IMG/VR virus record: IMGVR_UViG_3300021197_000592
Location: 34,439 to 98,438 of that record
From: a virus
DNA length: 64,000 nucleotides
Reading direction: 5' to 3' (one strand)
A program made the position numbers and the translations under genes. Of this stretch, positions 35,899 to 56,101 are shown one piece after another; within the stretch, counting starts at the first letter, position 1; every line of letters starts with the position of its first letter. The notes under the pieces are model-generated. The model was not told the origin of the DNA, made no database searches, and saw only the letters and a list, made by a program, of their open reading frames with translations.

Positions 35899-36036
35899 TT
35901 ATATCAACTCAAATACTTTCGCTATCAATACTAACGACAGGAATATGTTCACCCCTGCCGCTAAAGTCCTAAACAAGGCCATCGTAGCGAAATGGTCTTG
36001 CCCCCAATGTTCTATGTCATCTCCGTTCAGAACCAC
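35899..36036 (-). CDS. Small membrane protein overlapping polymerase end
   Basis: 45 aa if started at GTG 36036, which overlaps the polymerase stop; an ATG at 36087 in the same frame would lengthen it into the polymerase gene. A hydrophobic helix NIFLSLVLIAKVFEL sits at the C terminus. Ends three bases before the next ATG. Start uncertain, function unknown. Confidence 0.45.
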   Translation of the reverse strand: MVLNGDDIEHWGQDHFATMALFRTLAAGVNIFLSLVLIAKVFELI

Positions 36037-36899
36037 TCCCCCAACGTGCTTTGGCTCAAATCCCTCTTTATCTGCATTGTGTCCCAACCCATCGCTCTGA
36101 AAACCGGCTCTGCCTTCTTAACAACTGAATCAGCATAGTGCGCCCAATCCGGGTCATACACATCAAAGTCAGCCTCAGTCAAACCTGCCACATAGTTAGG
36201 TGTGACATAATCCTGCTTAATTGGATGCCAATACTTGATGTGCCTCTCTTTGACTCTGAGAAAGAGATACGAGTCCTCAATAGGAATATCATTCATAGTG
36301 TTGTAGTAAACAACTCCCTCGACACCAGCACCAACTGTTGGCCTCTTACCCTCAAGGGTTTGAAGGTTCAAGTTGTTACAACATGGTCCCTTGGTCAACT
36401 CATTCAGAGTCTTCTTCCTCTTGCAATTAGAACACTTAACTGAAAACCTAGCCTCTCTATATCGACTACGCTTCAATACCTCACTAATCGGAATCTGTCC
36501 TGATAAAACTTGATTATATCTATCTCTCAAAAAATCCGCTATTTCTTGTTCAGTATTATTCTCAACCCACATGTTGAGTACAGCCAACTGAGTTTCTTTC
36601 GCAAGTTTGGTTTCTGATAATCTCTTAGCAGTAAACCCTGTCATCACGAACTCTTTCTCATCCAAGAACTTACCATCCTTCCAAGTAATCAAACCAGCAT
36701 TCCTGTTCTTCGTTGCTCCAACACCTAGACTCTCAAAGTATTTCTCAAACTCTATGGCGACTGGATGTTCATCTAACTCTAGTAAGTTGGGAAAGAACTT
36801 TCTGACATGTTCATTCAGTTCCTCAAGCACTCCTTCTGCTTGCTCTACTGAATCGACAGTACAGTATATCGAATCTGTATGTCCATAAACCACCTTCAT
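36027..36899 (-). CDS. polB: Family B DNA polymerase, C-terminal subunit (motif C, thumb, PIP box)
   Basis: 290 aa beginning exactly at motif C: MKVVYGHTDSIYC. The usual YGDTDS is YGHTDS; the second, metal-binding aspartate (Asp9) is kept. It continues with KNRNAGL-type KxY-like region, a CSNCKRKKTL...PCC Cys-containing insertion, and ends DLSQSTLGEWF, a good PIP box (Q-x2-L-x2-W-F) for the sliding clamp. The N-terminal two thirds of the enzyme is encoded separately at 37538-39223. Must associate with it to be active. Start ATG overlaps the upstream small gene's TGA. Confidence 0.85.
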   Translation of the reverse strand: MKVVYGHTDSIYCTVDSVEQAEGVLEELNEHVRKFFPNLLELDEHPVAIEFEKYFESLGVGATKNRNAGLITWKDGKFLDEKEFVMTGFTAKRLSETKLAKETQLAVLNMWVENNTEQEIADFLRDRYNQVLSGQIPISEVLKRSRYREARFSVKCSNCKRKKTLNELTKGPCCNNLNLQTLEGKRPTVGAGVEGVVYYNTMNDIPIEDSYLFLRVKERHIKYWHPIKQDYVTPNYVAGLTEADFDVYDPDWAHYADSVVKKAEPVFRAMGWDTMQIKRDLSQSTLGEWF

Positions 36900-37537: not shown

Positions 37538-39223
37538 TTAACTCATCTCCTTGACTTTGAAAGCGGCTAGACGTATTGCTTCTCTCGCACTAGCAGTGAT
37601 GCAAGCGGCAAGTTCGACATTAGCCCATCCGAATCCTTGATACGCGATGATACCATAGAAAGATGCCATGAGCCTCTTGACTGCAAGTTGGTTATTATTC
37701 CACTTGTTGTAATCACTTTGGGACTCAGCATTCCTCGCCAAGGATTTGTATTCGTTTCTCAGTTGTTTCAACTCTAGAACTGCCTTTGGTAGTAGGCCCA
37801 AATCATCCACCTTGAAATATTTCATATCGTATTCCTTTACATCGCTGAAATCTTTTGGGGTTCTGATATTGACTGCAAACGCAGTAGGTTCTTCCGATAC
37901 GGTTTCCCAACTTATATTCCTAGCGATTATCATAGATGGATACAGTTGTGCGTAGTCGAATGCAGCGACACCTAAATGGAGTCCATTTGTAGACTCACTG
38001 AGAGGGTCATACACCATCGCACCATCATAGGACACCCGCTGCCCTTTCACGCCCGTAGGAGCCTTCCAAGGGGCGTTACGCATGAAGTATATCCCACCCA
38101 TGTTGCTTGCGTAGAAACAAGCATCGAAGGGAGCCTTGAGAAGCCTTTGGAGTGATACGATTGCTTCTGTTGTGTGTTGCATTTCATCTATTCGGACTAA
38201 TAGTTCAACGTCTACTTTAGCATACTCAATATATCTCTGAGTGTCCTCAAGCCATCCTCTAGCAAAGAACTCGTTCTTATCGGGAAACTTTTCACTGACT
38301 AACTTCTTCTGTCCTAGAACAGTTTCAGAAATGTAATCAAGAGCCATTGATGCAAGTGTTCCTCTCTGTGCATCGTTCCATTGTCTCTCAAATGCCAAGT
38401 CAAGCGGAACACAAATTCTACCCTTGATTGGTTGCGATATGGGAGAGTACGAAGTAACTGTTCCTTCATCCATTGTTGGCTTACTCTTGTTCCAAGAGAC
38501 ACCAATAACTTCATTCCACGGTGACATTAGTTTCGGGTCCACTCCATGATACACCATTCTCTCAATCAACTTCGGTAAGTCGAACTTCCAACCGAACCAA
38601 GAGATGAGCATGTCGGGGTCTTTGTCTATCATATCAGATAGGAAGCATATCAACATCTTCTCCTCAGAGTCGAACAGATGGCTAGTTGGAACATCATACC
38701 CTTGCTCCAAGAATGACTCCATGTCTGGTTGCCAAAAGTAAGTACGATACTTCCTATCATAGTTATCATACATGGCGATACATGTGATAGCACCATCATG
38801 CTCACCGCCTTGCATCCACTCCATGTCCCAATACCACTTACGCATCTTGTACTCAGGCATCTCATCGATGCAATCAACAGCGTACCTGTAGTGGTGTGAA
38901 ACATCTGCTTCGTATGTCTCAGGGAAATGATTCCTCAGACGATATGAGTATGATGGTCTTGATGGACTCCAAGTCACCTTTACTAGTTCATCTCCTTCTA
39001 GGCTCTCGTAATCGCCTTCTTCGTATTTCGCTTTCAACTTGAAGTGTCCCCACTTGTCCTTGAACTGAATTGTGCTTTCTTGGCCGTCTTCATACTCAGG
39101 ACTCTTCTTCACGAAGAAGTGTGGTGGAAACTCATGGAAGGAAACCTCCTTGCTCTCTCTTTCAAGAGTCTCGGGGTTTCTCCATCTAAGTCCTATTCCT
39201 TCTTTCACTTTGTCTATTATCAT
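37538..39223 (-). CDS. polB: Family B DNA polymerase, N-terminal subunit (exonuclease, motifs A and B)
   Basis: 561 aa. Proofreading motifs: WYWDMEW (Asp133, Glu135), LISWFGWKFDLP (Asp215), and YIEYAKVDVELLVRID. Polymerase motif A is AFDYAQLYPSMI (~430) and motif B QLAVKRLMASFYGIIAYQGF (~520). The frame stops at VKEMS just before motif C, which is in the gene at 36027-36899. Four small genes lie between. No intein sequence is seen at the break. The intact catalytic residues argue for a functional two-subunit enzyme rather than a pseudogene. Confidence 0.9.
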   Translation of the reverse strand: MIIDKVKEGIGLRWRNPETLERESKEVSFHEFPPHFFVKKSPEYEDGQESTIQFKDKWGHFKLKAKYEEGDYESLEGDELVKVTWSPSRPSYSYRLRNHFPETYEADVSHHYRYAVDCIDEMPEYKMRKWYWDMEWMQGGEHDGAITCIAMYDNYDRKYRTYFWQPDMESFLEQGYDVPTSHLFDSEEKMLICFLSDMIDKDPDMLISWFGWKFDLPKLIERMVYHGVDPKLMSPWNEVIGVSWNKSKPTMDEGTVTSYSPISQPIKGRICVPLDLAFERQWNDAQRGTLASMALDYISETVLGQKKLVSEKFPDKNEFFARGWLEDTQRYIEYAKVDVELLVRIDEMQHTTEAIVSLQRLLKAPFDACFYASNMGGIYFMRNAPWKAPTGVKGQRVSYDGAMVYDPLSESTNGLHLGVAAFDYAQLYPSMIIARNISWETVSEEPTAFAVNIRTPKDFSDVKEYDMKYFKVDDLGLLPKAVLELKQLRNEYKSLARNAESQSDYNKWNNNQLAVKRLMASFYGIIAYQGFGWANVELAACITASAREAIRLAAFKVKEMS

Positions 39224-49209: not shown

Positions 49210-49305
49210 CTATTCCTCCTCATCGGATTTCTTCGTAAAGGTAAACCCGTATTCTTCCAGCGTTGTTTGTCTTGTGTTTTCTCCGGTTATTTTTCTCATT
49301 TTCAT
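49210..49305 (-). CDS. Tiny PIP-box peptide (31 aa)
   Basis: ATG 49305 overlaps the upstream JAMM gene's stop (ATGA); GGAGGAGG lies just upstream. Sequence MKMRKITGENTRQTTLEEYG then FTFTKKSDEEE. RQTTLEEYGF resembles a PIP box (Q-x2-L-x2-aromatic) and shares T-L-[E/G]-E-[W/Y] with the two other clamp-binding C termini in this operon. A free PIP peptide could inhibit or redirect the sliding clamp of host or virus. Coding supported by spacing and coupling; role inferred. Confidence 0.5.
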   Translation of the reverse strand: MKMRKITGENTRQTTLEEYGFTFTKKSDEEE

Positions 49306-49847
49306 TCCTCCTCCTTTTTTATTTGTTCATCTATTTCTATTACAGACAGTTCCTCTTCCTCTGTCTTGTAGTCTATCACTGTCTCCGGTGGTTCCATTAG
49401 TCCGAACAACACCTTCTTGCCAATCTTTGTCTTCAAGTCATAAGCAAGATACTCGTTGTCGCCCAGCACAATCGCCGACTCTAGGACAGGCTGCCACGTT
49501 TTCAAAGATTTCCAATCAGTCATGCTCCAAAAGGCAGTGCCAAATGGATGCGTGTGTATCCAACATTTGATTGGTAACTTCATCGGTGAGCCATTGATTA
49601 ACTCGTCTTCGTGTCCCTCAAAGGATACGAAACCGGGTGTCCCGTAACTGATGTACAGGTTCTCATTCGCATCAATCATCACTTGTACTTCCCTCGGTAT
49701 GTCGAATGCCTTCTTTGATGCATTCCAAATCACACTTAGGAAAGTCTCAGTCGTATTGTTAGGATACAACCAGACTATATCATCGTTCATCTGCTCATAT
49801 GCTTCTCTTATATTTTGCTTCCAATTCTTATTCATTATTTCTTCCAT
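49302..49847 (-). CDS. JAMM/MPN metalloprotease (deubiquitinase-like)
   Basis: 181 aa. WIHTHPFGTAFWSMTDWKSL contains the complete zinc motif H98-x-H100-x7-S108-x2-D111 of JAB/MPN+ isopeptidases; PREVQVMI (~51-58) provides the strand carrying the upstream glutamate. C-terminal tail is acidic and charged. JAMM enzymes remove ubiquitin-like modifiers or trim their precursors. The same operon encodes an E1-like enzyme and a beta-grasp protein with residues after its GG, which this enzyme could process. Start fixed by GGAGGACAATAAA-ATG. Confidence 0.85.
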   Translation of the reverse strand: MEEIMNKNWKQNIREAYEQMNDDIVWLYPNNTTETFLSVIWNASKKAFDIPREVQVMIDANENLYISYGTPGFVSFEGHEDELINGSPMKLPIKCWIHTHPFGTAFWSMTDWKSLKTWQPVLESAIVLGDNEYLAYDLKTKIGKKVLFGLMEPPETVIDYKTEEEELSVIEIDEQIKKEEE

Positions 49848-49848
49848 T

Positions 49849-50091
49849 TTATTGTCCTCCCATTTGCACCATCAGTGAATCTTGGCTGTTCTGGAACTCA
49901 TGATATGCTTGGTGTCCCGCTATGAAACCACCAGCATGTCTCTTCGTTCCCAAGAACTCCTCTCCACAAACAGGACATGTTACCTTCACTATCTCTGCTT
50001 GCAGATAATACCCATCCGTGGATATTATATCCATTATTTTATCTAAGTCATCATCTGTTAAATCGTCTATATTACTATCTTCTTTACTCAT
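49849..50091 (-). CDS. C2H2 zinc-finger protein
   Basis: 80 aa. Acidic N terminus (DDLTDDDLDKIMD), then VTCPVCGEEFLGTKRHAGGFIAGHQAYH, a C-x2-C...H...H finger (Cys 39, 42; histidines in RHAGG/GHQAYH), with a Gln-rich tail. C2H2 fingers are common in archaeal viruses as small DNA or protein binders. The gene sits between JAMM and E1-like genes' region; role unknown. Confidence 0.6.
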   Translation of the reverse strand: MSKEDSNIDDLTDDDLDKIMDIISTDGYYLQAEIVKVTCPVCGEEFLGTKRHAGGFIAGHQAYHEFQNSQDSLMVQMGGQ

Positions 50092-50657
50092 TCTTCTTCA
50101 CTCCATTCTCTTTTCTTTTCCCAGTTCTCATATTGTTCATCATAGTGTTCAAAATACCCGGTATCATGCGGATTGAACATCTTCACCTCATGTATGTAGC
50201 ATTCCCTGCACATGATGTGTCTAGCAATTACTGGCATCTTCCCGCTACTTCTAAAAGGAACATAATCCTTAGCACCTCCAACTAGGTACTCTTCGCAGTT
50301 GAAGCAAACGGTATCTCTATTCTCATTGCTCTTCACTAACAAAGTCAAGGGAACCATGTACTTGCTACCACGCGAGTAGAGAGTTCCTCTCACAATGTTT
50401 GGTAATCGACCAATTGCCCTAGCAAAGTAATCCTTAGATGTATACAGTTGCTTCAAACCTACTTTGCGATTTTGTGACCTATGCCTCGGATGTACGTCTT
50501 TCAATCTAGTCAATGGCACAGTCGTCAGGTATTCCAATACCTCACGCATCGTACACATGTCACCCACATTCAGATAATCAAAGAACTCCGCAAGGACTTC
50601 CTTCACTTTCTTGTGGTTGAAATTTATTACTTGTCCTTTGGGCATACTATCACACAT
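50088..50657 (-). CDS. Hypothetical zinc-binding protein
   Basis: 189 aa. N-terminal helix pair (VINFNHKKVKEVLAEFFDYL), basic central region (HPRHRSQNRKVGLKQLYTSK), and a C-terminal zinc site VCFNCEEYLVGG...IMCRECYIHEV (two CxxC pairs ~35 residues apart). Acidic end. Overlaps the E1-like start by eight bases and the zinc-finger gene by four. Not recognised; proximity to E1 and JAMM genes is suggestive only. Confidence 0.5.
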   Translation of the reverse strand: MCDSMPKGQVINFNHKKVKEVLAEFFDYLNVGDMCTMREVLEYLTTVPLTRLKDVHPRHRSQNRKVGLKQLYTSKDYFARAIGRLPNIVRGTLYSRGSKYMVPLTLLVKSNENRDTVCFNCEEYLVGGAKDYVPFRSSGKMPVIARHIMCRECYIHEVKMFNPHDTGYFEHYDEQYENWEKKREWSEEE

Positions 50658-51249
50658 TCATAATTATCTTGTCAATAACATCATCATGATTGTTCCACCA
50701 TCTCTGAATCCATTGTGTGGCAATGCCAGCAATCGCCATATGCATAGTGTTCATCGTGTCAGCCGCGCCTTCCCATCCCTCTCCTTGACAGGAGAAGGAA
50801 CCATCGGGTCCACTAAGCAGGGCATCGACCAAATCCTCATCCACCTTGTATGAGATGAGTGCCGCATTCCTACCCTGTGCGCGTAAATCTAGCCACTTAA
50901 TCTTGGCAGAGTCTCCATACCCCTGTCGGTATAGAAGACGGCGTACTGCAAGGTTATCTGCACAACAGATTACCAAGTCATATCCCTTGAGTTGCTTGTC
51001 AAGTAGGACTTGATAGGGATGCACAGTACAACTGCCTGACCATGTGTCTACCTTCAATTCACCAACATCGTGTTCGCTATACATCTGGTTTCCAAGATTG
51101 CTCTTCTCAACCGTGTCATCATCGAACACTGTGATGTTGTATAGATGCACACCGGGGGTGTCTGTTCTACATCTCTGGTTTATTCTATTCAGGTTGTGAA
51201 TAAGGTAACTACCTATTCCACCTGCTCCTATTATCATTATCTTTCTCAT
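50650..51249 (-). CDS. E1/ThiF-like adenylating enzyme
   Basis: 199 aa. Nucleotide-binding GAGGIGS (8-14), ITVFDDDTVEKSNLGNQMY (39-57; the conserved D..N..R/Q), GELKVD (63-68), and YDLVICCADNLAVRRLL (90-106, the conserved D-x-V-x-x-x-x-D-N). A candidate catalytic cysteine is C154 in SFSCQGEG before a helix; the zinc CxxC pairs of MoeB are absent. The minimal E1 fold activates a ubiquitin-like C terminus. Works plausibly with the 68-aa beta-grasp protein at 55895-56101 and the JAMM enzyme. Confidence 0.85.
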   Translation of the reverse strand: MRKIMIIGAGGIGSYLIHNLNRINQRCRTDTPGVHLYNITVFDDDTVEKSNLGNQMYSEHDVGELKVDTWSGSCTVHPYQVLLDKQLKGYDLVICCADNLAVRRLLYRQGYGDSAKIKWLDLRAQGRNAALISYKVDEDLVDALLSGPDGSFSCQGEGWEGAADTMNTMHMAIAGIATQWIQRWWNNHDDVIDKIIMNV

Positions 51250-51334
51250 TGTTTTTCATCTCCATATATTGTTCTAGTGTCAAGTTTAGTCCTCTTTCCT
51301 TCATCTCAAAATACAACTGCTTGACCAGTCCCAT
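51209..51334 (-). CDS. Small protein overlapping E1 start (41 aa)
   Basis: ATG 51334 with GGAGA seven bases upstream; stop TAG 51209-51211. MGLVKQLYFEMKERGLNLTL then EQYMEMKNNE and a basic/Asn end. Overlaps the E1-like gene by 41 bases in another frame. Helical. Supported by site and coupling only. Confidence 0.4.
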   Translation of the reverse strand: MGLVKQLYFEMKERGLNLTLEQYMEMKNNEKDNDNRSRWNR

Positions 51335-51335
51335 C

Positions 51336-51446
51336 TCAAGTTCTCCGTCTTTCTGCTCTCTTTTGTTTCAAGTAGCATCTATCGCATATGATGTAGGAAC
51401 GTCTGTACTTCTTCCTACCACACTTGCAATAATCCTCTCCTTTCAA
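51336..51446 (-). CDS. Tiny basic zinc-knuckle protein
   Basis: 36 aa from TTG 51446, which overlaps the TFB stop: MKGEDYCKCGRKKYRRSYII then CDRCYLKQKRAERRRT. Two Cys pairs (C-x-C and C-x2-C) and a strongly basic tail. The frame is also open upstream through a further Cys pair (CIGCALLKGEDYCKC) but lacks a standard start there, so the real protein may be longer by an unusual start or a frameshift from TFB. Confidence 0.4.
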   Translation of the reverse strand: MKGEDYCKCGRKKYRRSYIICDRCYLKQKRAERRRT

Positions 51447-52354
51447 TAGCGCACACCCGATACAAAGTCCTCGACTTGCATATCAGATAATGTCTTCCTC
51501 TCTATTTGGAATATCTCACTCAATGTCACCACTGCTCCTCTCAGGCCAACATGTGAAGAGTTCCAGTGTTTACAGATGGCAGATTGTGTTATGTCATACC
51601 TCGACATCATCTGACCCGACATCCATATGCAAGCCGCTAACATCGTATCTGCGAATCTCATATCCAATGATTCGATGTGTCTTGCCACATACTCGACTAC
51701 TCTCAATGCATTTGCCCTGAAATAATCATCTATATCCACTTCCATTCTTGACATCAGAGTTTGCGCTCTCTGCTCATGGTTCCTAGTAATGAACACACCA
51801 GAGTTTCTCTGATGTCTCGCTATTCTTCTAGCGAACTTTGAGATGTCATTTGGTTTGACCCGCGTTCTTCTAGAATGTTCCTGTATGTTACATACAATGT
51901 CTGCTTCTTTGAGAACATAGAACGTAAGAGAGGCGCATCTTCTCTCAACGTCCAAACCGCGAAACAATTCTCTCTTCATCATATCATAGTATTTCTGCGT
52001 TCTTCTCTTCAAGTCGCTTGATACATTGTAGTACGAGAGTGTGCTGTTGATGAGGAGTCTTGCTGTTTTGTCTGCTTCGGTTTCAGGCTGGGTTCTCACT
52101 TGCTCCCTGTAGAGAGCGAACCTATCCTTGTTACCATAGGCATCTGACTTCCTAATGAAGGAACCCAAACTACCAATGGTCTTGCTTCTTTTATCCTCAT
52201 CGGATATTGAAATCATGTGTGTAGTCTCCTCAAAGGGATTCACCACAAGAACAAGACCACACTCATCACAAGTCTTCTCACCCAATCTATCGATGTAAGT
52301 GAAAGCCGTGCTACCGCACTCTTTGCATGATTCACTGACTGTCATAGGATTCAT
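51443..52354 (-). CDS. tfb: Transcription initiation factor TFB
   Basis: 303 aa. The N-terminal zinc ribbon is SCKECGSTAFTYIDRLGEKTCDECGLV (C-x2-C...C-x2-C). A B-finger/linker region follows (SLGSFIRKSDAYGNKDRFAL). Then come two cyclin folds (~95-190 and ~195-295) including RVVEYVARHIESLD and DTMLAACIWMSGQMMSRYDITQ. Complete domain set of archaeal TFB. It recruits host RNA polymerase to TATA promoters; a virus copy could direct polymerase to virus-specific promoters such as the repeated element at 60.9-63.5 kb. ATGA overlap with the upstream gene. Confidence 0.9.
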   Translation of the reverse strand: MNPMTVSESCKECGSTAFTYIDRLGEKTCDECGLVLVVNPFEETTHMISISDEDKRSKTIGSLGSFIRKSDAYGNKDRFALYREQVRTQPETEADKTARLLINSTLSYYNVSSDLKRRTQKYYDMMKRELFRGLDVERRCASLTFYVLKEADIVCNIQEHSRRTRVKPNDISKFARRIARHQRNSGVFITRNHEQRAQTLMSRMEVDIDDYFRANALRVVEYVARHIESLDMRFADTMLAACIWMSGQMMSRYDITQSAICKHWNSSHVGLRGAVVTLSEIFQIERKTLSDMQVEDFVSGVRY

Positions 52355-53598
52355 TTGTTCATCGCCCCTATGTTGTACTTCTTGTATCTTGCATCCTTTC
52401 TCTTATCGTAAGGGATGAGAAAATCATTGAATCTATTCTTACCGAACCACTCCTCTACCATAGGTGATAGTTGTCTGAGTGTGTATATCATCTCACCTGC
52501 ACCCTTGTCATTCATCAGCATCATCGCCCTTGATGATAGTTGGTCACCAATGCTAGAGTTGTGGTGTAGGTTGTCGATGCATATCGGTCCCTCCCACTTT
52601 TCGCCATTCCAATAGAACGTGTTGACGTTCTGGTGTCCACGCTTCCATCCCTTGTTGGCATCTGCGACAATCCAGTCAGCATGAATACCTCTAACGAACA
52701 GAGCCATGTATCCCTCATGCATAACCACTTGGATGTTATCGAACTCATCGGCTAGTTCATAGACTAACTCAAACGCTCTTTCCTCTACCATTTTCTGCGT
52801 TCTGTTCTGTAGTAACCATGCTATCATCAGTTTCTTCTGACTCTCAGATGGTTCCTCACCCATGAGTGCAGTCCACAGTCTCGTAGGTGATATGCGATAC
52901 CACTTCTTGGAACGGCTTGAGTTCAGACCGAATGTGTTTACGAATGTGTTTAGTTCTGAGATGGTCATCGAACCCCATATTCCCTCTGATATCTCAAGTG
53001 CGATATCCTTCTTACCAACCATCTTCGTGTTGATTCTGACTTCACGCCTAATCCCTCCGTCCCAAAAGACATAGGGGGTTCTGTTCTCTAGAGCGTACAT
53101 CACATGTGGTGGTGTATCAAGCACCCTATCGATATACTCCTCAAGACTGATTGCGCTTCTATCCATAACGCTCCTGTAGAATATCTTAGCCAAGGCCAAT
53201 GATATGTCATTCAATGACATCCTCTGACTGTTCATGGAATACACGGTGTTGTTCTTCTGTATCCATATCATGGCATCTCCATCATCTCTCTTGAAAGTGA
53301 TGATAGTAGTCCACTTCTCATATGCACTGTTGTCATAATTATAGTACCTGCTTCTTCTTCCATGTGTGTTTGGTAACACGTGATGTCTGATAGTGTAGGC
53401 AATGTTCTCCGTCATCGGTTCAAGCGTCTTGGTGAACCTGCTCGTAATATCCAACGGGGGGACTCTAACCCTTCTCTCACCTATACGGGTCGGAGTCGTT
53501 CCCACCTTCCAACGAACGCCATTGACGCGCATGAGAAAAGTAGTCTTATCGCTTTCTGAACCATCACCTGTTCTCGGTATTGTAAATCGTATTTTCAT
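52351..53598 (-). CDS. Hypothetical protein with weak E2-like motif
   Basis: 415 aa from ATG 53598 (GGTGAT seven bases upstream; four extra codons rejected). N-terminal ~100 residues basic/beta, mid region helical. Around 321-345 it has GHQNVN...GEKWEGPICIDNLHH, where C340 follows the pattern 'H-x-N-V...G-x-I-C-x-D' of ubiquitin-conjugating enzymes. The flanking strands (NIQVVMHEGYMALFVRGIHA) are compatible with such a fold, but the match is weak. It is adjacent to TFB and not far from the E1/Ubl genes. Otherwise unrecognised. Confidence 0.35.
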   Translation of the reverse strand: MKIRFTIPRTGDGSESDKTTFLMRVNGVRWKVGTTPTRIGERRVRVPPLDITSRFTKTLEPMTENIAYTIRHHVLPNTHGRRSRYYNYDNSAYEKWTTIITFKRDDGDAMIWIQKNNTVYSMNSQRMSLNDISLALAKIFYRSVMDRSAISLEEYIDRVLDTPPHVMYALENRTPYVFWDGGIRREVRINTKMVGKKDIALEISEGIWGSMTISELNTFVNTFGLNSSRSKKWYRISPTRLWTALMGEEPSESQKKLMIAWLLQNRTQKMVEERAFELVYELADEFDNIQVVMHEGYMALFVRGIHADWIVADANKGWKRGHQNVNTFYWNGEKWEGPICIDNLHHNSSIGDQLSSRAMMLMNDKGAGEMIYTLRQLSPMVEEWFGKNRFNDFLIPYDKRKDARYKKYNIGAMNK

Positions 53599-53878
53599 AA
53601 TAATCACCATATTCTTCTTTATTCACTCTGTAGTATTCCTTTCTATCATACAGTTCTTGTATGTCATCCATGTCCTGTAAAGCCGAATACCCTTGCTTCA
53701 CAAGTCTCAATATCCCATGTCTCAATTCTCCTAATGAGATTGGGGATGGAGCCAAGGCATCTTCACTACCCTTGTATCTCCAATACCAAGTACGAACGCT
53801 TTCCTTAGCGCCCGCATTTGTCATTGAGTCTACTATTTCTTCCTCTATCGATAACCATGCCTTCGGATTATATTTCAC
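53564..53878 (-). CDS. Hypothetical protein
   Basis: 104 aa from GTG 53878 (GGTGG upstream, overlapping the ribonucleotide reductase stop). MKYNPKAWLSIEEEIVDSMT, then a helical segment with a possible winged-helix pattern (LGELRHGILRLVKQGYSALQ). Tyr/Asp/Glu-rich tail. Possibly DNA-binding. Confidence 0.5.
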   Translation of the reverse strand: MKYNPKAWLSIEEEIVDSMTNAGAKESVRTWYWRYKGSEDALAPSPISLGELRHGILRLVKQGYSALQDMDDIQELYDRKEYYRVNKEEYGDYYENTIYNTENR

Positions 53879-55736
53879 AAGCACCACCTGCACAAGCAAC
53901 TTCGCCTTGCAGATTGGTATTATCATTGTATTCCTTGACCTGTGTTAGGTCAATCGATTGTAATTTAGCGAACATGTCCTCATATTGTTCTTTCTCGATA
54001 GCCTCAAACGGTGCTTGTGTGTAAACACCGTTATCGAATGGTAGAACAGAGATGCCATTGTAGTGTTCTCTGTTATCCCACATCCATTCTTTCACTACAT
54101 CCCACTCGTCATCTCTGACGTTGACTGTAGCAGAGACATTGTGTGAGTTGACTCCACTCACATGTCCCCTTCGTACCCACTCGATTGAATACTGCTTCAA
54201 TCTCTTCAACATGGAAAGAGCAGACTCCTCCCTTGTGATGATGTCACCTCTAGGTGCTTTCTGTGGTATGGCAAGTATTGCTTGATTGTCGTCCCACTCA
54301 TCATCTTCTACTAACTCAGGCAGCATCTCATTGAGATACAGATACATTGATTCATTCTTCATAACCCTGATTCTTCTTATGTAATACTCGGAGTACCAAG
54401 CATGTATTCCAGAAGAAGTGCCTAGTACCAAACTGGTAGTACCGGCGGGTTTCACACAAGTCACTCTTGCGGCTGAGTTTATCCCGAATTTGTCAGCATA
54501 TGCCTTGTTGACGATGACTGCACAATCAGACGCTCTTTCAAGGTTCAAGTCCTTTAGAGCATTGCTTGCTATACCAGTCATTGATATTCCGACAAGTGCT
54601 TCCCTCTCTGTTGTGGTCTTCCACGTTTGTCGTAGATAATGGAAGTCCGTGTAGCATGCTTGCATCGTTCCTATGATGGTAGCGGCTTCCACTCTCTCTT
54701 CCAAGTCCTTCTGACTGGAAACAGTGGATACGTTAATTTCACAGAGATTGCAGAACTGATGGTTCTTCAAGGAAATCTCCGCACATGGGTTTGTTCCCCA
54801 ATTCTTGTCATTGGAGAAGAATATCCCCGGCTCGCCAGTCTTGTTGGCCCTCGTCCTGTTCCAGAGGTCATCGAAGAACTCCTTCTCACACTTCTCTCTG
54901 ATGAGAACTGCTGAGTTGTTCGCTCTTGCTCTTTGTGGGTTAGTCTCCCAATAAAGACCGTTCTTTGAGTTAATCATCTCGTTGTCGTCTGCATTGAACA
55001 GACTAATCATAGCCGCTCTTCTGATACCACCAGCAAGGACGGCATCTGCGATGTGGCACATCATATCATGTGCTTCGATTGGTGTAATGTGATGACCATC
55101 CTCCATGTTCAGTAGCATGTTCTCTATGGTAACTATGCACTTCTTCAATGGGGCAGGGCCGGGTGCTTTACCACCGCTAGTCTTCAACGGGCTTCCCTTT
55201 GGTCTAATGTCTGAGTAGTCGAACCTTGGTGTTGTTCTCCTATCTCCTGTGTATGCGTTAAATAATACCTTGACTGCATCTGCCCATCCTTCTATCGAAT
55301 CAGCAACCAGATGCCTGTAAGTCCTCTCAGGATTAGGCTTCTGTATACTATCCAATTGTGATACGTGGTGTCTCTGAACAGAATACCCAACTCCTGTGCC
55401 GCCCAGCAACAGGAACATGGCTTCTGAAAACGCTATTGTAGAATCAATAGCCATGTACGCACAGTTGTATATTCTGTTCGGAGACAAGTCAATCGGCTTC
55501 CCTGCAAATTGCATGGAGCGCATGGATGGTAGCACTTTCTTGGTTAGAACGAAGTTGTCATAGACATAATCTATCTTCTCGTCAAACCCTTGAATGTGTG
55601 TGAATTTCCTCTTATGCATTTCCTTGTTTCTTCCTACAATCTCTGTCCAAGATTCCCTCCTGAATTCAAGAGGCAAGTATTTTGCATACTTCATGTTCGT
55701 TGTTATTTCTGACAATATTTCTTGTTGTAATTCCAT
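53868..55736 (-). CDS. Class II (cobalamin-dependent) ribonucleotide reductase, RTPR type
   Basis: 622 aa, single chain. Active-site features: IYNCAYM (N-terminal redox cysteine), WGTNPCAEISLKN (catalytic N-x-C-x-E), NLCEINVST (second cysteine), VKPAGTTSLVLGTSSGIH, and C-terminal VACAGGACE swinging-arm pair. Shorter than the class I alpha subunit with no beta subunit gene nearby, so the monomeric adenosylcobalamin-dependent type (L. leichmannii-like) is most likely. Makes dNTPs for virus replication from host precursors. GGAGAGAG before ATG; preceded by a structured leader. Confidence 0.88.
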   Translation of the reverse strand: MELQQEILSEITTNMKYAKYLPLEFRRESWTEIVGRNKEMHKRKFTHIQGFDEKIDYVYDNFVLTKKVLPSMRSMQFAGKPIDLSPNRIYNCAYMAIDSTIAFSEAMFLLLGGTGVGYSVQRHHVSQLDSIQKPNPERTYRHLVADSIEGWADAVKVLFNAYTGDRRTTPRFDYSDIRPKGSPLKTSGGKAPGPAPLKKCIVTIENMLLNMEDGHHITPIEAHDMMCHIADAVLAGGIRRAAMISLFNADDNEMINSKNGLYWETNPQRARANNSAVLIREKCEKEFFDDLWNRTRANKTGEPGIFFSNDKNWGTNPCAEISLKNHQFCNLCEINVSTVSSQKDLEERVEAATIIGTMQACYTDFHYLRQTWKTTTEREALVGISMTGIASNALKDLNLERASDCAVIVNKAYADKFGINSAARVTCVKPAGTTSLVLGTSSGIHAWYSEYYIRRIRVMKNESMYLYLNEMLPELVEDDEWDDNQAILAIPQKAPRGDIITREESALSMLKRLKQYSIEWVRRGHVSGVNSHNVSATVNVRDDEWDVVKEWMWDNREHYNGISVLPFDNGVYTQAPFEAIEKEQYEDMFAKLQSIDLTQVKEYNDNTNLQGEVACAGGACEI

Positions 55737-55894
55737 TCTTCTCTCTCCGAAAATTTGGTTGTCGGGCTTCTCACCCGATTGGCAACAATCCTACCCGTTG
55801 CTGGGGTTTTTTGCGTTATTCAGCAGACCTATAATGCTTAGGCAAAAAATGCAGAGTTGCACTTAAGCATTGCTCAGTTGAGAACGAGTTAGGC
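55737..55894 (-). ncRNA. Structured leader upstream of ribonucleotide reductase
   Basis: 158-base gene-free gap in an otherwise packed operon. Pairings: 8-bp stem AATGCTTA/TAAGCATT (55833-55840, 55864-55871) with a GC/T6-containing loop; TCGGG/CCCGA (55762-55766, 55774-55778) near the reductase start, flanked by GTTG/CAAC; competing GCAAC/GTTGC stem. GGCTCA/TGAGCC (55892-55906) lies at the upstream gene's stop. Could be a riboregulator of reductase, but the B12-box consensus was not found. Confidence 0.4.
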
Positions 55895-56101
55895 TCAGAG
55901 TGAGCCTCCGACCATTGCCGGAATTAGGTTGACAGTATCAACCTCGTCCCAACTGATGTTCGGGATTTCCTGTCTCGATACCATCTCACCCTCAACGAAA
56001 ACCCAGTGTGTGGGGTGGTCGTTGATTTGGTCGATGACATCTGAAACAGTTACGTCTTCTAATACAGTGTGTCCTGTGTCATTCATTATTCTTAATTTCA
56101 T
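55895..56101 (-). CDS. Ubiquitin-like beta-grasp protein with diglycine tail
   Basis: 68 aa. MKLRIMNDTGHTVLEDVTVSD (two strands and turn), helix DVIDQIND, strands WVFVEGEMVSRQ, then DEVDTVNLIPAMVGGSL. The end 'D-x-V-x-L-I-P-A-x-x-G-G' is the ThiS/MoaD/SAMP-type C terminus with diglycine at 65-66 plus two extra residues (Ser-Leu), so it would need trimming before activation. The same operon encodes an E1-like enzyme and a JAMM protease. Could be a protein modifier, or a sulfur carrier for tRNA or cofactor thiolation. AAGGAGG seven bases upstream. Confidence 0.75.
   Translation of the reverse strand: MKLRIMNDTGHTVLEDVTVSDVIDQINDHPTHWVFVEGEMVSRQEIPNISWDEVDTVNLIPAMVGGSL

Follow-up and report, generated by a model that had tools for sequence, protein, structure and literature searches.

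We analyze here three genes of the virus record IMGVR_UViG_3300021197_000592, which is 98,438 bases (98.4 kb) long. The window, by which we mean the whole stretch of DNA that was analyzed, has 64,000 nucleotides and covers positions 34439-98438 of that record; coordinates below are those of the window unless another source is given. An earlier note on this DNA had proposed that the virus encodes a ubiquitin-like protein (Ubl) ending in Gly-Gly (GG) and a short tail, an E1-like activating enzyme and a JAMM protease, and that together they run a modification or sulfur-transfer pathway of the virus's own. The three open reading frames are where the note had placed them, all on the minus strand:

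55895..56101, minus strand: Ubl, a predicted beta-grasp ubiquitin-like precursor, 68 amino acids, ending LIPAMVGGSL (VGG-SL)
50650..51249, minus strand: E1-like activating enzyme with a ThiF fold (Pfam ThiF), 199 amino acids, single domain
49302..49847, minus strand: JAMM metalloprotease (profile and fold matches), 181 amino acids, with HTHPFGTAFWSMTD and an invariant Glu53

The ubiquitin-like protein, the protease and the E1-like enzyme

Searched as a single sequence, the Ubl matches Pfam ThiS (E=8e-4, residues 13-66), slightly below the curated cut-off. The AlphaFold2 model, made with 32 relatives, is a confident beta-grasp (pLDDT 87) with the predicted topology strand-strand-helix-strand-strand-(helix)-strand, and Foldseek against the PDB finds ubiquitin in nearly all of the best matches (best E 6e-3, probability 0.8-0.99, TM about 0.4-0.5). 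When a viral library is searched by fold, the matches are tail proteins and the ubiquitin-like proteins of giant viruses, and the Ubl family profile, when run against PDB sequences, finds no ubiquitin and only one short chance-like match. On its modelled beta-grasp fold, and on a C-terminal GG of the kind used for activation, the protein is classed as ubiquitin-like.

The GG is invariant in all 72 distinct viral Ubl sequences, compared over their C-terminal halves. It is followed by no residue in 4 of them, by one in 37, by two in 30 and by three in 1, and these tails are nearly arbitrary (C, Y, Q, SQ, NY, NQ, SL, L, RF, F, WA, IN and others). Thus, of the conserved GG-SL end that had been expected, the GG stands, but the SL does not, as the tail varies freely. 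A GG that never changes, with a few freely drifting residues behind it, is what one expects of a precursor whose end is cut off after the GG; a conserved tail would agree less well with such trimming. In ThiS and MoaD, the GG is normally the very end of the protein. Ahead of the GG, R43 is the last basic residue of the Ubl, and a tryptic remnant would have 23 residues.

The JAMM motif, WIHTHPFGTAFWSMTD, matches HxHx7SxxD. The single-sequence Pfam match is weak (0.098), and a profile of 34 sequences matches AMSH-LP, AMSH, Sst2 and Caldiarchaeum Rpn11 at 3e-5 to 5e-4. For the AlphaFold2 model (pLDDT 88), the best fold match is the Caldiarchaeum ubiquitin:Rpn11 complex (E 5.5e-4, probability 1.0). 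Glu53, His98, His100, Ser108 and Asp111 are invariant in the alignment, and 97 of 98 distinct homologues have the complete motif. With this glutamate and HxHx7SxxD, the protein is, as a predicted protease, a member of the JAMM/MPN+ class. A tblastn search of the JAMM against named phages gave no match.

The E1-like protein matches Pfam ThiF as a single sequence (E=2.5e-16), and its family profile matches Uba4, MccB, UBA5, MoeB, Cap2 and ubiquitin E1s. The best curated family is PRTRC_ThiF in NCBIfam, at 1e-16 and 61.1 bits against a 144.75-bit cut-off. The NCBIfam family of the SAMP-activating UbaA scores 32 bits, below its cut-off of 450 bits, and the protein also falls far under the curated MoeB and ThiF cut-offs; it has neither of the two CxxC zinc motifs, and no rhodanese domain. 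By profile and fold, the assignment to the E1 family holds, so that all three families named in the earlier note, the beta-grasp modifier, the E1/ThiF-like enzyme and the JAMM with an intact motif, withstood closer inspection.

To read its active site, we aligned the E1 with E. coli MoeB and ThiF, and use MoeB numbering. The viral set keeps most of the catalytic residues: GxGGxG and the equivalents of Asp62, Asn70, Gln74, Lys86, Asp130 and Cys187. In the viral E1, Cys154 is invariant, and so are two arginines, R123 and R127. The whole family, viral and host, is without an equivalent of MoeB Arg73 (the position is Asn or Tyr in the viruses, His in the homologues from Poseidoniales and Tyr in those from Methanoperedens), without the N-terminal helix that bears Arg14, and without both zinc CxxC pairs. 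Because the cellular homologues also lack Arg73, its loss is a family trait and not the decay of one gene. MoeB Arg73, Lys86 and Asp130 correspond to UBA1 Arg515, Lys528 and Asp576 of the conserved E1 active site (PMC12355090). As Arg73 belongs to that site, E1 activity cannot be assumed, and the protein is a predicted enzyme. One could then take it for a remnant, a non-enzymatic scaffold that binds nucleotide or Ubl and does not adenylate. The family-wide absence of the Arg14 and Arg73 equivalents speaks for such a scaffold, but the viral set retains every other catalytic residue listed above, R123 and R127 could substitute for the missing arginines, and the GG of the Ubl is strictly kept. 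We therefore hold the remnant to be very improbable.

The Methanoperedens-type homologues, on contigs L148, L149 and L154, are related single-domain E1s, and no Ubl or JAMM was detected adjoining them.

Conservation in related viruses and in Poseidoniales

We fetched viral loci from both the E1 side and the Ubl side, with 95 distinct E1 genes, and the gene order was conserved already in the first relatives fetched. Ubl is present in 64/64 E1 loci with at least 7.5 kb upstream, JAMM in 64/64 E1 loci with at least 4 kb downstream, and E1 and JAMM are both present in 61/61 Ubl loci with at least 9 kb downstream. In all 79 distinct loci that hold the three genes, they lie on one strand in the same order, Ubl-E1-JAMM, and a fixed order conserved in so many loci argues that the set is not there by chance. 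The pairwise divergences of the three proteins across these 79 loci are correlated (Mantel r 0.71, 0.52, 0.49).

Since these loci were found by the genes themselves, we used as a control 24 long contigs picked by their terminase. E1, Ubl and JAMM occur together in the same 19 of the 24. The other five, which have none of the three, are fragments of 61-77 kb that also lack the adjacent ligase and show a distant second ligase only. Co-occurrence, fixed order and correlated divergence support the three genes as a functional set in this virus group, and on this comparison of genomes they are predicted core genes of the whole group. The checks on fold, on the conserved GG and on co-occurrence that had been proposed with the original idea were thus all run, and none of them refuted it.

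The virus also encodes PolB (in two pieces), an ERCC4 nuclease, an RFC-like ATPase and a pyrimidine-dimer glycosylase, as well as portal, terminase, an SU10-type capsid protein and a Laminin_G_3 protein. Its genome has two opposed modules, one for replication and one for morphogenesis, and the Ubl/E1/JAMM cluster lies on the replication side. The order Magrovirales comprises viruses associated with Poseidoniales (PMC12999244; PMC10160649), and our record agrees with these descriptions in size (90-110 kb), in opposed modules, and in PolB, ligase, ERCC4 nuclease, portal, terminase and major capsid protein. By size, gene content and module layout, it probably belongs to this order. The assignment is probable and not proven because, among named phage records, the terminase matches distant phages only and no named magrovirus record was matched. 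Poseidoniales are the likely hosts.

Three further features of the record may be mentioned. The two pieces of the B-family DNA polymerase (36027-36899 and 37538-39223, minus strand) lie about 640 bases apart, and a split gene, an insertion or a frameshift are possible. The structural module, outside the window in the same record, holds a small GTPase-like protein (L014 11244-11915; Arf/SRPRB match at E about 2e-4 to 9e-4 in a proteome scan), and also a second protein with an ATP-dependent-ligase domain (L014 4058-6700, 880 amino acids), which is found in most relatives searched.

A genome scan with the E1 alignment finds full-length homologues in metagenome-assembled genomes of Poseidoniales, with a JAMM gene directly after E1. 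In 146 Poseidoniales genomes, a full-length E1 is found in 66 and a Ubl in 68: both in 61, E1 only in 5, Ubl only in 7, and neither in 73 (Fisher p=1e-26). JAMM lies in the same stretch as E1 in 28 of the 30 host E1 loci examined. The host Ubl (GHT...W...GG), E1 and JAMM are homologous to the viral ones.

The host Ubl is often tandem, with 2, 3 or 4 repeats that each end in GG (loci L220, L222, L223, L376, L383 and L387); the second halves of the repeats are identical in L220 and L223. Terminal tails of these poly-Ubl proteins are L, RC, RFC, QYC and RAC, among others. There are also fusions: an E1-JAMM fusion of 402 amino acids beside a Ubl ending VGGN (L241), and two Ubl repeats joined to E1 in one open reading frame (L370, L371, and also L401 and L402, with a JAMM gene after the fusion in L401). 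The contig G042:C1, of more than 600 kb, holds a Ubl array, the related E1 and a second E1-type match, and that all of these lie on one contig of such length argues against contamination. Two host genomes that we examined have a separate E1 of the MoeB/UbaA type, with NLQRQ and a rhodanese-like C-terminal part; the E1 linked to Ubl is thus not the housekeeping sulfur E1. At one host locus (L180 1997-3400), a Cdc48/VCP-like AAA ATPase and a TFB stand in the same gene run as Ubl, E1 and JAMM, a possible link to an unfoldase.

In a tree of E1 sequences, made by a quick search and with long branches to the outgroups, the viral sequences group in a single clade (SH-aLRT 92), next to which stands that of Poseidoniales (99). 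A recent capture of E1 from present hosts, which we considered, is not supported by this topology; the separate viral clade makes the viral set look old in the virus lineage. For one marine group II genome, a 2014 survey noted only deubiquitinase (DUB) and RING genes (PMC4327156). In the literature we find no poly-Ubl system described for Poseidoniales, nor this set in magroviruses, a provisional novelty, as key magrovirus papers were not covered. The poly-Ubl system of Poseidoniales is apparently undescribed.

Because Poseidoniales have this related poly-Ubl system, the viral set probably runs beside, or overrides, host tagging. The chief other way in which the virus might gain is by acting against the tagging of the host. 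Its Ubl would then serve mainly as a decoy, its E1 as a competitor and its JAMM as a deconjugase, and a host Ubl with a role in defence or regulation would be stripped off or blocked. In favour of this, the related system is present in about half of the Poseidoniales genomes searched, bacteria use ubiquitin-like conjugation against phages, and multicopy JAMM deSAMPylases have been proposed as a means by which Borgs counter host tagging (PMC12660748). For interference, however, a deconjugase alone would suffice, and the strict retention of E1 and of a Ubl with an activatable GG favours use of the tag. The host cassettes stand in a recurrent gene context, with no obvious defence island in the loci examined, and PADLOC matches cover only the ThiF core of E1, for which reason we did not file the set as a defence system. 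We regard interference as quite unlikely.

The proposed pathway and the cluster neighbours

We consider it rather probable that these genes give the virus a reversible pathway of its own for ubiquitin-like protein modification. In this reading, the Ubl would at first be an inactive precursor that ends in VGG and a few further residues, and the JAMM would cut it after the GG. The E1-like enzyme would activate the exposed glycine with ATP, and would probably hold the Ubl on the invariant Cys154. The Ubl would then be attached to target proteins, from which the same JAMM could remove it. Cleavage, activation, thioester, conjugation and removal, as well as targets and viral benefit, are what we infer from the genes. 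The trimming step is suggested by the GG with its drifting tail and by the Rpn11-like protease, for which Caldiarchaeum offers a precedent. The idea of a modification or sulfur-transfer pathway belonging to the virus is in this way partly supported: there is a functional set, and the logic of GG tail, JAMM and E1 holds, while the viral structural, clamp or host proteins that the note had named as perhaps its targets are conjectural.

The same three proteins could serve as a sulfur carrier of the QbsE/HcyS/CysO type. In that case the Ubl, once trimmed by JAMM and adenylated by E1, would deliver sulfur as a thiocarboxylate, the recipient being a small molecule, a tRNA or a cofactor. Bacterial operons of JAB, ThiS/MoaD and E1 in siderophore or sulfur metabolism exist (PMC1779556 rows 4a-4e). 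The only significant family match of the Ubl is ThiS, and the E1 is itself of the ThiF fold. On the other side, no rhodanese, desulfurase or PP-loop sulfur acceptor is found among the virus proteins scanned, and the RNR (ribonucleotide reductase) gene next to Ubl is missing in 22/79 loci. Host relatives encode 2-4-fold poly-Ubl, and we know of no catalytic sulfur carrier with such an arrangement. We favour conjugation over sulfur transfer because of these host arrays and fusions, an E1 without rhodanese and zinc motifs, the lack of a sulfur enzyme in the scanned virus proteins, and the separate rhodanese-type E1 in both host genomes examined. A sulfur carrier thus seems to us unlikely.

Several points nevertheless weigh against conjugation. 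The Foldseek TM-scores of the Ubl are modest, and the E1 family has lost Arg73, the Arg14 helix and the zinc pairs. JAMM trimming is also used in sulfur-carrier pathways. Neither E2 nor E3 was found: the virus proteins scanned include no member of the UBC or RING families, though distant forms could escape such a scan. The neighbouring genes are:

52351..53610, minus strand: p419, unnamed, carrying the conserved motif GPICIDN; in all 79 loci it stands between Ubl and E1
49849..50091, minus strand: zf80, 80 amino acids, zinc-finger-like, ending in GG plus one residue (alignment)
51443..52354, minus strand: TFB-like transcription factor, a cluster neighbour (TFIIB zinc-binding, E=1.5e-4)
53868..55736, minus strand: B12-dependent RNR (Pfam), adjoining Ubl

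Along the minus strand, the order is Ubl, B12-dependent RNR, p120, p419, TFB-like, E1, p189, zf80 and JAMM, and past JAMM come a small predicted lipoprotein, p136, p73 and an ATP-dependent DNA ligase.

The cysteine of the p419 GPICIDN motif, Cys344, is invariant in a 10-sequence alignment and conserved in >90% across 76 sequences. The protein has no significant Pfam or PDB match. When p419 is compared by hhalign with PRTRC protein B, against a seven-sequence profile, the Cys region aligns best, at a non-significant E of 0.05-0.12 and a probability of about 1%. No E2 family is found in Pfam for p419, p381, p120 or p189, nor in the PDB with the p419 and p381 profiles. On its motif, p419 is a candidate only for a transfer (E2-like) enzyme. 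By eye, GPICIDN resembles PRTRC protein B and the loop at the active site of E2 enzymes.

The zf80 protein has a Cys/His motif, CPxCGEEFxGTKRHAGGFIAGHxxxHEF, that resembles a zinc finger. Its gene is found in 45/64 loci, and 45 of 48 distinct homologues end in GG plus exactly one residue, with the GG invariant in the alignment. From this ending, zf80 is a possible second substrate of JAMM, or a possible mimic of the tail. A small archaeal family that is not beta-grasp, arCOG06308, also has a conserved GG end (PMC2948915).

The TFB-like gene lies between Ubl and E1 in 67 of the 79 loci. For Haloferax, turnover of TBP2 through a ubiquitin-like pathway has been described (PMC4895103); this, together with a TFB in the shared cluster, is at most a hint to a target. 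The RNR gene occupies a place between Ubl and E1 in 57 of the 79; it is adjacent in the window, in the host loci L145, L150 and L152, and in crAss001, and we rejected it as an obligatory partner given the 22 viral loci where it is absent from that position.

A bolder form of the conjugation reading is that the pathway is autonomous, that its E1, which has no zinc and no equivalent of Arg73, represents a new subfamily, that p419 is a new Cys-dependent transfer enzyme, and that, in parallel to the undescribed poly-Ubl system of Poseidoniales, the pathway re-tags host or viral proteins during infection. We offer this tentatively and think it rather unlikely.

Eukaryotic viruses usually hijack ubiquitin, and known phage Ubl/JAB pairs come without E1. 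In the present case, a modifier system of three parts is kept throughout a virus group, with a trimmable Ubl precursor as in eukaryotes. The tandem poly-Ubl and the Ubl-E1 and E1-JAMM fusions of the likely hosts recall polyubiquitin genes, and they belong to archaea that are neither Asgard nor Caldiarchaeum. Should conjugation prove true, viruses and some of the most abundant archaea of the sea would be in conflict over the tagging of proteins, and the set would be a compact system for minimal ubiquitin-like conjugation, either E2-less or with a new E2.

Comparison with known systems

The archaeal SAMP/UbaA/HvJAMM1 system of Haloferax shares with the viral set a beta-grasp modifier, a single ThiF-fold E1, a JAMM, the lack of any E2 or E3 found, and its archaeal setting. 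It differs in that the viral Ubl has a tail after the GG and the viral genes are in one cluster, and in the E1, which at 32 bits is far from the 450-bit UbaA cut-off and has no zinc motifs and no Arg14 or Arg73 equivalents. Archaeal SAMP conjugation is not known to need a dedicated E2. In archaea, according to a 2010 survey, a JAB gene seldom has a Ubl gene linked to it (PMC2948915).

The Caldiarchaeum ubiquitin/Rpn11 operon, the closest structural match of the viral JAMM, also has a JAMM that cuts a Ubl precursor: CsRpn11 cuts exactly after the GG and removes nine residues (PMC6043591). That system has in addition an E2 and small RING E3 proteins (PMC5654768), whereas none were found among the virus proteins scanned.

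PRTRC cassettes, with ThiF, JAMM and the E2-like protein B, occur on mobile elements and in one phage, and include the best NCBIfam match of the viral E1; phage BgVeeders33 carries such a PRTRC-like set (E1, JAMM and E2). The PRTRC E1 keeps Arg73 but the viral E1 does not, the viral E1 stays under the PRTRC_ThiF cut-off, and no significant match to protein B was found.

TAPI-TAPK of Lambda/T1-type phages is likewise a phage-encoded Ubl and JAMM. It lies in the tail module with an NlpC partner and without E1 (PMC1779556), whereas the viral set is in a replication-side cluster with an E1. Iyer et al. 2006 describe phage Ubl/JAB pairs without E1 and bacterial Ubl/JAB/E1 operons (PMC1779556).

The crAss-like phage genes gp76-gp77 encode an adjacent ThiF-like E1 and a metalloprotease with the JAMM motif (HSHNNMATFFSGTD), also with loss of the Arg73 equivalent and with RNR in the region. 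But the E1 gp76 carries a long extension at its N-terminus, no small gene for a separate Ubl with GG was identified, and the relationship is a long-branch one only. In crAss001 (L212, MH675552 75670-88047), gp77 with HxHx7SxxD stands beside gp76, and the B12 RNR gp69 is nearby. The N-terminal stretch 'IIIQTAIVGGSTY' of gp76 recalls a Ubl C-terminus.

Sulfur-carrier operons (QbsCDE/HcyDFS/CysO) have a linked sulfur enzyme or rhodanese, which is absent among the virus proteins scanned. The Bil/Bub and 6A-type bacterial E1-E2-JAB systems share the Ubl/E1/JAMM logic, with E1-E2 fusions there and a single-domain E1 here. Finally, the poly-Ubl/E1/JAMM system of Poseidoniales is built from homologous parts, but its E1 forms a clade of its own, and its Ubl is often tandem and in some cases fused to E1.

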